From contig NZ_NEGE01000005.1 of the NCBI RefSeq assembly GCF_002135355.1, positions 1 through 64,000 of the forward strand: 64,000 nucleotides of DNA, written 5' to 3'. The stretch is from Acinetobacter sp. ANC 4169. GTDB taxonomy: Bacteria; Pseudomonadota; Gammaproteobacteria; Pseudomonadales; Moraxellaceae. Shown here in pieces: positions 3,522 to 11,226 of the stretch. Positions within the stretch are counted from its first letter, which is position 1. Each line of letters opens with the position of its first letter. A program made the translations under genes and the position numbers. The notes below the pieces were generated by a model. The model ran no database searches. It had not been told where the DNA came from and saw nothing but the letters and a program-made list of their open reading frames with translations.

Positions 3522-5219
3522 TTAATTCCAGTGTTTTAATTTTGAAGTATGGCCAATTCCCACATTAAAGCTATTGGTCGGATCCAGCTTTTGATAATGA
3601 TTTTTCAGCGCAGGCTTGGCCACATATAAATGCCCGACATTATGTTCTGCGGGATATTCGGCTCCACGTGCATCCAGTAAATGCCACATTTGATGTTCTA
3701 TTGCCAGAGGATCAACGCCTTTTTTCACAATATAGTCCTGATGGAACACATGACATAAAAAATGACCGTAATACAGTTTATGAATAATCAAGTCATCCAT
3801 TTCCTCAGGCAAAGTTTCGACCCATTCACGGTCATTACGGCGTAAGGCAATATCCAGCGCCACAATATCTTCCACTTCTGAACGATGAGTATCACGATAG
3901 CGGATGGCCGCACCAGCTACGGCAAAACGGTGTAAAAAGGCTTTACGTCCTTCTTCCTCGCTACACAGGAAATAATTTCCAGTGAGGTTGGCGGAAAAAT
4001 ATTGCTGTAAAAATTGCTGAACCTGTTCTACATCCTGATTCTCGATACGCAGCACCAGATGATGCTCATACAAATCACGAAACTCATTCATGCGTTTCGG
4101 TAAATGTGACGGTAAAAATTTACTCACCAATTGCAAGATTTTATCTGAAAGACCTTTCATGCCAAATTTTTCTAAATAACCATCAACCTTATCTTTCATG
4201 GCAAAAGCAGTCGGCACTTTAGCAGTCCCGAACTTTTCAATAAACATGAAGGTATCTTTGCCATATTCCGCGCCAATATCGTAAGCCACCCGGTGAATAT
4301 ATTCGCCCGCAATCGGTAAACGTGGCAAATCGGTGAGTAGAAAACGACGGATTGCGGTTAAATCTTCCTGAGTGTTGGTGCCGACATAAAAAACCTGACT
4401 GGGGATTTTTTCAAAGGTATCCAAACGTACCGCAAACACACAGACTTTTCCTGCCGAACCGGATGCTTCATATAAACGCGATGGATCGGCATTAAATCGT
4501 GCCGGAGTATTTTCATCGACCTGCGTCACGTCATGTGCATAACGATGGTCCGAAGCACAGCAATGTTGATCATTTTCAATGTCGGTCAATTGATATTGCT
4601 GATTTTCCAGATTAGATAAAATTTCTTCTGGCGTTGAACCGAGCTTGATGCCCAAATGATTGACCAGTTCCAGTTGCCCGGATTCATTTACACGTGCATA
4701 CAAGGCAAGTTCCGTATAGGCAGGTCCACGTCGAACCAGTGCACCACCCGAGTTATTGCAGACTCCACCCAAGACCGATGCACCAATACAGGAAGAACCG
4801 ATCACGGAATGCGGCTCACGATTAAATGCTGCGAGTTCTTTTTCCAGTCTGTCCAGTGTGGCACCGGGCAAGCAAACCACTTGTTTGGCACTATTGATGA
4901 CTTGAATACCAGCTAAACGCCGAGTATTGATCAGAATCACAGGACGGTCATAATCATCGCCAAAAGGGGTTGAACCACCGGTGAGTCCAGTATTGGCTGC
5001 CTGCATAATCACGATACAGTCTGCATCCACCGCAGCCTGCAAGACTTGCCACTGCTCCAGCAATGAACCCGGCACAACCACAGCCAAGACTTGGCCAGAA
5101 CCGTAACGGCGACCTTGACGATATAATCGTGTGTCATTGTCATCTGTTAATACATGTTGCTTGCCAACAATATTGATGAGCTTTTGAATGGTTTGCGGTG
5201 CAGCTGATTGCGTAAACAT
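3522..5219 (-). CDS. dld: Quinone-dependent D-lactate dehydrogenase
   Basis: Dld is a peripheral membrane flavoenzyme that oxidises D-lactate to pyruvate and passes electrons to quinone. The 565 residues match E. coli Dld (about 571). The N-terminal half is a FAD-binding type 4 (PCMH) domain: VVVPGSLLEQWQVLQAAVDA, then ANTGLTGGSTP and GASVLGGVCNNSGGALVRRG. The C-terminal half is the Dld membrane-binding/cap domain, ending in LDPTNSFNVGIGHTSKL. It sits downstream of lldD, completing a module for both lactate isomers. A 444-bp gap with inverted repeats separates it from lldD, so it may have its own promoter. Confidence 0.93.
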   Translation of the reverse strand: MFTQSAAPQTIQKLINIVGKQHVLTDDNDTRLYRQGRRYGSGQVLAVVVPGSLLEQWQVLQAAVDADCIVIMQAANTGLTGGSTPFGDDYDRPVILINTRRLAGIQVINSAKQVVCLPGATLDRLEKELAAFNREPHSVIGSSCIGASVLGGVCNNSGGALVRRGPAYTELALYARVNESGQLELVNHLGIKLGSTPEEILSNLENQQYQLTDIENDQHCCASDHRYAHDVTQVDENTPARFNADPSRLYEASGSAGKVCVFAVRLDTFEKIPSQVFYVGTNTQEDLTAIRRFLLTDLPRLPIAGEYIHRVAYDIGAEYGKDTFMFIEKFGTAKVPTAFAMKDKVDGYLEKFGMKGLSDKILQLVSKFLPSHLPKRMNEFRDLYEHHLVLRIENQDVEQVQQFLQQYFSANLTGNYFLCSEEEGRKAFLHRFAVAGAAIRYRDTHRSEVEDIVALDIALRRNDREWVETLPEEMDDLIIHKLYYGHFLCHVFHQDYIVKKGVDPLAIEHQMWHLLDARGAEYPAEHNVGHLYVAKPALKNHYQKLDPTNSFNVGIGHTSKLKHWN

Positions 5220-5663: not shown

Positions 5664-6818
5664 TCACTCCGCCAATTCTCTATCTAACTTCACCAAACAA
5701 TCCGAAGTAATATCTGCAATCGTTTTTGCACCGGTGAGCGTCATCGCCACGCGCATTTCTTTGTCAATTAAATCCAGTAGATTCGAAACACCCTCACCAC
5801 CAGCTGCCCCCAGGGCATACACAAAGGCACGTCCGAGCATACACGTGTCCGCACCTAAGGCCAGCATACGTACCACATCCAGACCATTACGGATACCCGA
5901 GTCGGCTAGAATTTTGATGTCGCCTTTGACCGCATCGGCAATCGGTGGAAGCGCACGCGCGGAAGATAAAACCCCATCCAGCTGACGACCACCATGGTTT
6001 GACACCACGATGCCATCTGCACCAAAACGCACAGCATCTTTGGCATCTTCAGGGTCAAGTATGCCTTTAATGACCATCGGGCCATCCCAAAATTCACGAA
6101 TCCACTCAAGGTCTTTCCATGAAATTGATGGGTCAAAGTTATTGCCCAACCAGCCAATATAATCTTCTAGACCTGTCGGCTTACCTAAGTATTTAGAAAT
6201 ATTGCCCAAGTCATGCGGACGGCCCATCATGCCCACATTCCATGCCCAGTGTGGATGGAAACACGACTGTATATAACGGCGCATTGCTGCATTTGGGCCA
6301 CTCATCCCTGAGTGGGCATCACGGTAACGCGCACCCGGTACCGGCATATCCACCGTAAATACCAAAGTTGAGCAACCTGCCGCTTTAGCACGTTCCAGGG
6401 CATTTTTCATAAAGCCACGGTCACGCAGCACATACAGCTGGAACCACATTGGACGCTGAATCGCAGGCGCAACTTCCTCAATTGGACATACTGAAACGGT
6501 AGACAGCGTAAATGGAATACCCTTTTTATCTGCGGCAACGGCTGCTTGAACTTCGCCGCGGCGTGCATACATCCCGGTTAAACCGACTGGTGACAGTGCA
6601 ACAGGCATCGACAAAGTTTCATCAAACAGTTGGGTTTCCAGACTTAACTGTGACATATCGTTTAATACACGCTGACGCAAAGCTATTTGTGATAAATCTT
6701 CTACATTACGCTTTAGGGTATATTCGGCATATGCACCACCATCGATATAATGAAATAAAAATGGTGGTAAACGACGTCGTGCCGCTTCACGATAATCATT
6801 GGCAGAAGAAATAATCAT
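5664..6818 (-). CDS. lldD: FMN-dependent L-lactate dehydrogenase
   Basis: LldD oxidises L-lactate to pyruvate at the membrane, feeding the quinone pool. The 384-residue alpha-hydroxy-acid dehydrogenase contains the FMN/substrate motif [10 protein letters not shown] with catalytic H275 and R278. It also has GILDPEDA and [19 protein letters not shown], which bind the FMN phosphate. It is slightly shorter than E. coli LldD (396). It lies 2 bases behind lldR in an lldP-lldR-lldD operon and should be induced by lactate through LldR. Confidence 0.95.
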
Positions 6819-6820
6819 GC

Positions 6821-7564
6821 TTATATCCTGTTTAATCGACTGGCACGCTGACGACGAGCTTCTTCTTCATCAATCATGCGTACCTGTTGTACTACAAACT
6901 CAATGTGTCCACAGACTGCTTTACGTGCAGCTTCTGGATCACGACGTTCAATTGCATTCATGACTTGAAAGTGCTGATCATGCAATTGATCAAATCGGTG
7001 TGCTTCGCTATAAACTTTTCGACGACCTAAAACGACATTAAATTGCAACAGATCAAATAGACCACGCATCATCTGAATCAACACTAAATTATGTGAAGCT
7101 TCAGCAATCGCTAAATGAAATTTCGCATCAGCTCGAGCTGCTTCATCATCATTTCCTAAAGCCTGAAAATGATTGATCTGATCATAATAATGTCGGATAT
7201 GTGCCAAGTCCTCTGCTGTAGCACGTTGTGCTGCATACCATGCAGTACCACCTTCCAAAATAATGCGCGCCTCTTGCACATCAAAACGGTAGGCAGGGTC
7301 TTCACTAATCAAACTGCTGATCGGCTGCACAATTTGATAACTCGACCAAGTTGCTGGCAATTGCTTTAAAAAAGTCCCTGCACCCACCTTACTGACTAAC
7401 ACACCCATGCTGGTCAATTGAGAAATCGCTTCGCGTAAAGAGGTGCGTGAGACTCCAAGTTGTTCACACAATTTCCGTTCAGCAGGCAGACGATCTCCAA
7501 CTTGCATATTGCTTTCTTCAATCAATACACGAAGACTTTGAACAGTTTTATCAGAGACTTTCAT
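6821..7564 (-). CDS. lldR: LldR, FadR/GntR-family regulator of lactate use
   Basis: This 247-residue regulator has an N-terminal winged helix (about 1-75, with [22 protein letters not shown] as the recognition region). A C-terminal FCD ligand domain (about 95-230) contains the conserved acidic/histidine set, e.g. [14 protein letters not shown]. In enteric and pseudomonad relatives LldR represses lldPRD and is relieved by L-lactate. It is encoded between lldP (32-base gap) and lldD (2-base gap). Three palindromes matching its known TTGGT-n3-ACCAA box lie upstream of lldP. Confidence 0.92.
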
Positions 7565-7596: not shown

Positions 7597-9258
7597 TTAT
7601 GGAATCATCCAAGGGAACACATAAGCTTGTAGGGTGATTAAAACCCCCATCATGATTGTGAACGTTATACTGTGTTTTACGGTAAAACGGAATAAATCCG
7701 ACTCTTTACCCACCAAGCCTACTGCTGCACAAGCAATGGCAATCGACTGCGGTGAAATCATTTTCCCTGTTACACCACCACTGGTATTCGCAGCAACCAG
7801 TAGCACTTCAGGTACTCCAATTTGCTGTGCGGTTGTCGCCTGCAATGCTGCAAATAAAGCATTGGCTGAGGTATCTGAACCGGTCAGGAATACACCCAAC
7901 CATCCCAAGAATGGCGAGAAGAACGTAAAGGCTTGGCCTGTATGTGCAAGTGCTAGTGCAAGCGTTGCAGACATGCCTGAATAGTTCGCAATAAAAGCAA
8001 AGGCCAATACCATCCCGATCGAATAAATTGGAATCTTTAATTCATTAATGGTTTCACCAAAAGTCACTAGGGCTGCTTTAGGCTTCATTTTCAAGAACAT
8101 GATGGTGATGATGGCCGCGATCACGATTGCCGTACCCGTTGCCGAAAACCAGTCAAATTTATAGATTGCATCGTAGTCTTTCATTTCAGGAACGACTGGC
8201 GGCATCTTTTGCACCAGTTGATGTAAAAATGGCACATGTATCGAAATCACCATGTCATGCAATGCACCATCTTTGGTAAATAAATCCTTAAAAGGTTTAA
8301 TACTCCAAATGGTGACCATCACGGTTAAGATCGCAAATGGCGACCATGCTTTGGCAATTTGACCCAAGCTATATTTTTGCTGTTTTTGTGCTGCGACGTC
8401 TTCGTTCATATTTGCGTCTTGATCTGCAAAACGGAAAATATGTTTAGGCTGCCAGCATTTAAACAAAATTGTTAATGAAATCAAGGATGCAATTGCAGCC
8501 GTAATATCGGGTAGTTCTGGACCGACAAAGTTAGAAGTTAAGTATTGTGCGATTGCAAAGCTACCTGCACCGACCACAACCGCAGGCCATGTTTCTTTCA
8601 CCCCACGCCAGCCATCCATAATGGCCATAATCCAGAACAATACGATTGGCACCATAAATGGTAACTGACGGCCCACCATTTGGCTGATTTCCATGGTATC
8701 AACGCCAGATACCTGCCCGGCAACGATAATTGGAATCCCCATCGCACCAAAAGCCACAGGAGCTGTGTTTACAATTAGACAAAGACCTGCTGCATATAAA
8801 GGTTTAAAGCCTAAACCAACCAATAGTGCTGCGGTAATCGCTACAGGTGCACCAAAGCCTGCTGCACCTTCAAGGAAAGTACCGAAAGCAAAGCCTACCA
8901 AAAGCATCTGCAAACGCTGATCTTCTGTAATAGACAGAATAGACGAGCGAATAATGTCAAACTGTCCTGTTTTCACTGAAATTTTATACAGGAAAACAGC
9001 GCCGATGATGATCCACGCAATTGGCCACAAACCGTAGAAAAAACCATAAACCATGGAAGCCAATGCCATCAGCGCAGGCATCTTATAGGCAAATAAAGAC
9101 ACCAAAAGTGCAAGTACAACGGTGATCGTACCTGCAACACTGCCTTTTAAACGAAATACAGCAAGCGCCAAGAAAAAAAAGATAATCGGAATGAGCGCAA
9201 TTAAACTTGATATCCATATATTTCCCATTGGGTCATATATCTGCTGCCATTGAAGCAT
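7597..9258 (-). CDS. lldP: L-lactate permease
   Basis: LldP is an inner-membrane lactate/proton symporter of the LctP family. The product is about 553 residues with at least twelve hydrophobic spans, and contains [13 protein letters not shown] and [15 protein letters not shown], both typical of the family. The ATG at 9258 is preferred to the one at 9264 because AAGGAG lies 6 bases before it, while it directly abuts the earlier ATG. It is first in the lldPRD operon. Expression is expected to depend on LldR through the palindromes starting about 65 bases upstream. Confidence 0.94.
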
Positions 9259-9321
9259 TGTCATCTCCTTGAAATGCTTACGAGATTTAATTATTGAGCA
9301 AAGTTAGGTTGATAATCCACA

Positions 9322-9340
9322 TATTGGTCATACCAATATA
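9322..9340. promoter_or_regulatory. LldR operator, proximal site
   Basis: ATATTGGTCATACCAATAT is a perfect dyad around a 3-base centre, matching the known LldR/PdhR box (AATTGGT-n3-ACCAATT). Its centre at 9331 is about 73 bases upstream of the lldP start. Confidence 0.75.
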
Positions 9341-9377
9341 ATGTAATTAATTCTCTACCCCAACATTATTGATGAAA

Positions 9378-9418
9378 TACTCAGCGATTTTTATTTATTT
9401 CAGGATAAAATTTCAAGC
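9378..9418 (-). promoter_or_regulatory. Possible lldP promoter
   Basis: On the minus strand TTGAAA is followed after 17 bases by TAAAAA within TAAAAATCG, lying between the proximal and middle operators. The -10 is weak and the assignment is tentative. Confidence 0.3.
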
Positions 9419-9426
9419 TTTTATTT

Positions 9427-9444
9427 ATTTTGGTCTGACCAATA
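9427..9444. promoter_or_regulatory. LldR operator, middle site
   Basis: TTTTGGTCTGACCAATA holds TTGGT-CTG-ACCAA, centre 9436. That is 105 bases (ten helical turns) from the proximal site, a spacing suited to looping. Confidence 0.7.
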
Positions 9445-9620
9445 CTTTAAATTTATTCCTGTATTTTCAATTAAAAAGATTATTTTAAAATACATAAACC
9501 ACTGTTTTAAATTTATTAATTTTATAAAATTTAGATCAGTTTATACTTTAGTCTAATGATGCATTATTCTCTAAACTCATCAACCATATTGTTAGCAGCC
9601 AGAAACACAGTTTAATTTTA

Positions 9621-9639
9621 ATATTGGTATGACCATTTT
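9621..9639. promoter_or_regulatory. LldR operator, distal site
   Basis: ATATTGGTATGACCATTTT contains TTGGT-ATG-ACCAT, with one arm imperfect. It is centred at 9630, 194 bases beyond the middle site and about 250 bases before argG. Confidence 0.5.

Positions 9640-9786: not shown

Positions 9787-11226
<1,440 letters not shown>

Follow-up and report, generated by a model that had tools for sequence, protein, structure and literature searches.

Helically phased pairs of candidate LldR operators upstream of lldP across Acinetobacter, and a third site in one clade

Looping of DNA by LldR of Escherichia coli was reportedly proposed by Aguilera in 2008. The LldR box has been described as a 17-bp element that occurs twice per target, with lldP as the strongest target of E. 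coli LldR (PMC10272880). In work with a synthetic E. coli lacUV5 library, LldR is listed as possibly looping; the excerpts cited here report no significant synergy between proximal and distal LldR sites, and a lone proximal LldR site also failed to repress (PMC7804116). Boxes of the TKGT/ACMA type, mostly with a 3-nt gap, are common to FadR-type regulators (PMC4494728; see also PMC5343134 for background). For Acinetobacter baumannii, an LldR iModulon has been reported (PMC10878099), in which, as in the present case, the LldR regulon is the lactate operon. iModulons are, however, expression modules, and the available passages of that study mention neither operators nor spacing, whereas we deal with operator sites. 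Among the papers listed in a literature search, with most subscription journals outside its coverage, none was seen to describe phased spacing of LldR sites in Acinetobacter.

The control region analyzed here belongs to a known kind. The window, that is, the whole analyzed stretch of 64,000 nucleotides from Acinetobacter sp. ANC 4169, carries on its minus strand the genes lldP for L-lactate permease (7597..9264; NF007740, 1042.6 bits, cut-off 918), lldR for a FadR-type GntR regulator (6821..7564; NF007741 LldR, 352.6 bits, cut-off 311), lldD for L-lactate dehydrogenase (5664..6818; NF033901, above cut-off), and dld for D-lactate dehydrogenase (3522..5219; NF008387, above cut-off). The lldR product combines GntR and FCD domains (PF00392 and PF07729) and shares 47% identity with LldR of E. 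coli; the closest named lldR genes, those of A. amyesii and A. gandensis, encode proteins with 100% identity to it. On the plus strand, argG (9883..11226; NF003779, above cut-off) is the divergent neighbour of lldP. The two genes are separated by a gap of 618 bp, from which the lldP-lldR-lldD-dld operon is controlled and which contains all three dyads discussed below. As in the lldPRD system of E. coli K-12, a FadR-type LldR is encoded together with lldP and lldD, and two boxes of the same type are separated by an integral number of helical turns. In E. coli K-12 the sites are 126 bp apart (12.0 turns), whereas the window has 106 bp (10 turns) and, in addition, a clade-specific third candidate operator. 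A palindrome resembling the ACTU box, the position of dld behind lldD, and the divergent argG also set the window apart.

A sequence-only reading of this DNA had placed three LldR-type dyads upstream of lldP. They are indeed present, two of them perfect and one with a single mismatch. Site 1, the downstream candidate operator (9324..9336, TTGGTCATACCAA), is a perfect TTGGTNNNACCAA centred at 9330, 66 bp before the lldP start. Site 2, the upstream candidate operator (9430..9442, TTGGTCTGACCAA), is likewise a perfect TTGGTNNNACCAA and is centred at 9436. Site 3 (9624..9636, TTGGTATGACCAT), centred at 9630, has one mismatch but retains the core TGGTNNNACCA. The latter two centres had been placed correctly; the first lies at 9330 rather than 9331, and sites 1 and 2 are 106 bp apart instead of the claimed 105. 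At 10.5 bp per turn this corresponds to 10.1 turns, and the assertion of a ten-turn distance stands. Sites 2 and 3 are separated by 194 bp (18.5 turns), so that site 3 does not share a face with the other two. The assignment of the dyads to LldR also fits, as lldR is part of the operon and the core TGGTNNNACCA, carried by two boxes before lldP, is that of the E. coli box AAnTGGTCnGACCAnTT given in the cited part of PMC10272880. Sites 1 and 2 have the appearance of LldR operators, and LldR is predicted to bind them.

The loose motif is not enriched. Within the window, 40 matches with at most two mismatches compare with 43.3 in shuffles, and the genome contains 17 exact copies of TTGGTNNNACCAA versus 16 of the reversed control pattern. 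A stricter form, WTTGGTMNKACCAAW, was derived from the flanks and the centre of the relatives' sites. Only three perfect copies of it occur in the 3.23-Mb genome, two of which are sites 1 and 2. The third sits within a long open reading frame, which we take to be rapA. Allowing one mismatch, we counted 28 genome copies by eye, and about 0.005 would be expected per 618-bp gap, compared with the three found. It is the clustering of the dyads and their stricter form that is unusual, not the loose motif. A genome-wide LldR regulon was considered and rejected: the sole perfect WTTGGTMNKACCAAW beyond the lldP pair is the one within the reading frame, matches with up to two mismatches number 255 versus 347 for the reversed control, and the exact 13-mer shows the 17 versus 16 copies given above. 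Another perfect TTGGTNNNACCAA, at 10359-10371 within the coding sequence of argG, is probably incidental.

Matches to LldR were obtained in 133 of 175 same-genus genomes (E up to 1e-90), including that of the window, and the stretches upstream of lldP were taken from the 132 relatives. Two of the 133 loci were left out, L057 with a contig end within lldP and L074 with an lldP match of 26% identity. Both operators are present in all 131 usable lldP-lldR loci of the genus, in 129 of them with at most one mismatch per operator; for L094 and L102, the call was based on the intact core. A separate scan of named loci, which overlap with the 131, likewise detected both operators in 34 of 34 (33 titled Acinetobacter and one Moraxellaceae bacterium).

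The distance between sites 1 and 2 takes discrete values. It amounts to 83 bp in one locus, 86 bp in two, 94 bp in one, 95 bp in eight, and 103-108 bp in 119, and nothing falls between these classes. With a turn of 10.5 bp, they correspond to about eight, nine, and ten helical turns (3, 9, and 119 loci, respectively). A quick tree built from lldP DNA shows six changes of class, landing at 83, 86, 94, 95, 95, and 95 bp. For six random shifts of 5-25 bp to be phased this well, we obtained a rough p of 0.0007, a post hoc value that rests on six parsimony changes, a single quick lldP tree, and shifts taken as uniform over 5-25 bp. The interval between site 1 and the lldP start, used as a control in the same genomes, was not quantised but covered 51-72 bp nearly free of gaps, with a few values at 77, 79, and 116 bp; it carries some noise, as the lldP starts were extrapolated from tblastn matches and are possibly a few codons off. 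L066, L069, and L160 have one more weak match inside the interval from site 1 to site 2, which was skipped in the spacing measurement. The helical phase of the boxes is thus kept across the genus, as in E. coli, which bears out the earlier claim that sites 1 and 2 lie on one face of the helix. The pattern supports the phasing idea and lends indirect support to looping by LldR.

Outside Acinetobacter, a class-wide search revealed a close lldP in five of 369 genomes, that of the window included, and a follow-up within the order of one of these five found one in 11 of 250 genomes, all from one genus. All 11 loci of this genus (L183, L184, and L204-L212), whose strand was set by tblastn, have paired sites, with a spacing of 96 bp in one, 97 bp in nine, and 98 bp in one (9.1-9.3 turns). 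Two further stretches from outside Acinetobacter, L185 and L186, contained neither an LldR match nor paired sites. A spacing of 96-98 bp, 2-3 bp off the nine-turn class of Acinetobacter, indicates a constrained distance but argues against an exact whole-turn rule. Phasing is better supported than the sequence-only reading could know, yet it is inexact outside Acinetobacter.

A candidate lldP promoter lies between sites 1 and 2 (9387..9416, minus strand; TTGAAA, 18 nt, AAAAAT). It is weak in the window, and promoter-like sites in its surroundings do not clearly exceed the number in shuffles (6 versus 4.2, sd 2.5). In most of the genus, TTGATC-17-TANNAT-like promoters take its place, and a score tuned to TTGATC or TTGACA finds a candidate between the boxes in most members. 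The clade of the window has a drifted promoter in which the TTGAA element is kept, with a poor -10 at best. The candidate -35 begins 26-30 bp after the centre of site 2 in 92 of 131 loci, and in the ten-turn loci the -10 mostly ends 46-50 bp before the centre of site 1. With the putative start point placed accordingly, the centre of site 2 would lie near -64 and that of site 1 near +40 in most of the genus. Four of the nine nine-turn loci have lost the turn on the site 1 side, where the -10 is 37 bp from site 1 compared with about 47, while the -35 is still 29 bp from site 2. In some members of the genus (L109, L131, L042, and L114), half-sites were seen between site 2 and the lldP start, for instance GATCAGACCA on the downstream side of site 1 and CAGACCAATATTGATC in overlap with the -35.

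Site 3 is confined to one clade. It occurs in all seven members (the window, L031, L032, L033, L094, L095, and L096), corresponding to seven of 131 loci and one change on the lldP tree; extra distal sites were sought in the 133 loci at up to one mismatch. Its carriers in the set of 34 named loci are A. amyesii, A. gandensis, A. tianfuensis, and Acinetobacter sp. ANC 4204. Extra weak matches of their own, elsewhere, were noted in L040, L117, L130, and L139. The pairwise identity of the gap to that of the window is 47-60% within the clade. In the seven-way alignment, nine of the 13 columns of site 3 and 11 of those of site 2 are invariant, compared with a maximum of seven in 251 background windows. 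Site 1 reaches seven of 13 here, no more than the best background windows. We conclude that site 3 is a real clade-level addition of single origin. Its distance to site 2 is 192-194 bp in five genomes (18.3-18.5 turns) and 183-184 bp in two (17.4-17.5 turns). Site 3 may keep a phase of its own, a tentative reading from only two values, and is offset from the other two sites by almost half a turn; the idea that it would join the same one-face loop is not supported by these distances.

Site 3 could also be a neutral or decaying dyad that is non-functional for LldR, a possibility to which we give appreciable but clearly minor weight. Its restriction to seven of 131 loci, its lack of helical phase with the other two sites, and the mismatch in one of its half-sites in the window would be expected of such a relic. 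An ACCAT variant confined to one half-site, as in site 3, is shared by site 2 in A. towneri and A. indicus, which favours the operator reading. Counting against a decaying dyad are a conservation above that of all 251 background windows despite the low pairwise identity of the gap, and the perfect dyad at site 3 in four members of the clade (L032, L094, L095, and L096). Furthermore, site 1 is weakened (TTGGACAGACCAA) in L032 and L095, where site 3 is perfect, and the reverse holds for the window, L031, and L033, as if sites 1 and 3 traded strength.

Taken together, a phased pair of LldR operators that acts through a loop of about ten turns, or through a one-face clamp over the promoter, and is released by L-lactate, with site 3 in an auxiliary role, appears to us the probable explanation. 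LldR dimers would occupy both operators of the pair, site 2 ahead of the promoter and site 1 past the start. As both operators lie on one face of the helix, the bound dimers could meet, either joining across the promoter in a loop of about ten turns or clamping it from one face. Binding of L-lactate would then release the LldR dimers. In the clade of the window, a third operator of LldR type arose once, 183-194 bp further out; it would most likely be auxiliary, by raising the local LldR concentration or by making an alternative, longer loop, rather than by joining an in-phase loop. Several observations count against this explanation, namely the half-turn offset of site 3, the weak promoter of the window, the lack of enrichment of the loose 13-mer, and the modest invariance of site 1 within the clade. 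The loop in particular is called into question by the lacking synergy of LldR sites in the lacUV5 library, as far as the cited excerpts go (PMC7804116). The earlier analogy with two-site looping in E. coli thus holds for the two-site layout but finds no backing in that synthetic test.

Phasing could also be obtained if each site faced RNA polymerase separately, which likewise speaks against the loop. According to this alternative, which we regard as rather unlikely, LldR is a dual activator and repressor that makes face-dependent contacts with the polymerase at sites 2 and 1, with no loop being formed. E. coli LldR is indeed called a dual regulator in sequence annotation and in the title of Aguilera 2008, and the 26-30 bp between site 2 and the -35 in 92 of 131 loci, the result from the lacUV5 library, and the 96-98 bp of the other genus, which are not an exact whole turn, agree with separate contacts. 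The four nine-turn loci described above argue against them: site 2 keeps its 29 bp to the -35, and the turn is missing between the -10 and site 1 (37 rather than about 47 bp), in the transcribed leader, where a direct contact with the polymerase is less expected.

The real binder could, in principle, be another FadR-type regulator, PdhR- or GlcC-like, which would recognize boxes of the same common type. We consider this very unlikely, because only four places in the genome encode a GntR domain, two of them in frames of more than 450 aa, the LldR model is the only one listed that reaches its cut-off with the regulator of the operon, and in eight inspected loci the sites go with lldP whatever gene lies beyond. 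The weakest suggestion, that site 3 places argG under LldR control, as the original claim of an influence on argG implied, is very improbable and was rejected for reasons of conservation and spacing: although site 3 is 253 bp before the argG start codon and thus nearer to argG than to lldP, 34 of the 42 loci with argG in the stretch taken upstream of lldP lack an extra distal site at up to one mismatch, an indel of about 23 bp makes the site 3-argG distance vary over 250-272 bp whereas sites 2 and 3 stay 192-194 or 183-184 bp apart, the LldR sites are retained in the eight inspected loci while the gene beyond the lldP control region changes, and we know of no metabolic link.

The most conserved block of the lldP-argG gap within the clade is a further palindrome between sites 2 and 3 (TATACTTTAGTCTA, 9542-9555), with 13 of 14 columns invariant. 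It is similar to the ACTU box of CrbR/ErdR and resembles instances listed in the cited part of PMC5715377, e.g., that for PFLU0447. With a matrix built from five of these instances, 9542-9555 gave the best ACTU-like score among 103 chunks of the 64-kb window. The published ACTU box, in contrast, occupies -52 to -36 of acs (PMC5715377), just upstream of the -35, whereas that of the window is situated some 112 bp past site 2, in front of a lactate permease gene and far from the candidate lldP promoter. An ACTU box before acs of this genome was looked for and is represented by a half-conserved, weak match only (score 10.8 versus 16.6 at lldP). Of the five places in the genome with a GerE domain, one was scored; its best model was ErdR, with 253.4 bits at a cut-off of 390.

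Related palindromes (TAGACTNNAGTCTA, at most two mismatches) occur in 58 of 133 same-genus loci, a few of them likely by chance. Up to 190 bp past site 2, the core GACTWWAGTC is present in 42 of 131 loci, compared with 0.05 in shuffles, although the relatives are not independent; the window, with a one-base difference in its core, does not count among these 42. The shuffles used here and for TATGGTCTAAT keep dinucleotide blocks, not exact dinucleotide counts. In the genus of the other order, TATGGTCTAAT, the core of an ACTU-like box, is located between the LldR sites in 11 of 11 loci, and the box is centred 24-26 bp after site 2. In ten of these loci, no more than 9 of 300 shuffles scored as high, and in L212 48 of 300 did so. 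Genome-wide, neither TANACTNNAGTNTA (5 matches versus 5 in the control) nor TAGACTTTAGTCTA at two mismatches (17 versus 36) is enriched, and a regulon defined by the palindrome was rejected on these grounds. Inspection by eye for a second lldP promoter at the palindrome revealed no consistent -10 and -35 elements, and a literature search with the letters of the palindrome yielded papers that looked unrelated. The same type of palindrome also lies before the gene for the C4-dicarboxylate transporter DctA and between two outer-membrane-type genes, one of them weakly porin-like, of the same genome (L194 and L187, respectively, each near 1501). The palindromes at lldP, dctA, and the porin-like gene may possibly form a small organic-acid regulon, though one without genome-wide enrichment.

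The paired sites and the ACTU-like box in the other genus lend some weight to a two-signal control of lldP, which nevertheless is a tentative and, on balance, improbable model. The LldR pair would respond to lactate, and an activator of the ErdR/CrbR type, acting on the ACTU-like palindrome, would respond to another organic acid or an alcohol. In the clade of the window, the box is upstream of the pair instead of inside it as in the other genus; sites 2 and 3 bracket it, and LldR bound there could shut off both the activator and the promoter.

Looping of DNA by LldR was proposed for E. coli, and yet a synthetic test came out without it. The jumps of the operator spacing by whole turns over the genus Acinetobacter represent a natural experiment, according to which the helical face matters, and the genus offers ready-made promoters with eight, nine, and ten turns for testing. 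Moreover, the occurrence of candidate ACTU-like boxes in two genera suggests that a second input feeds into lactate uptake.
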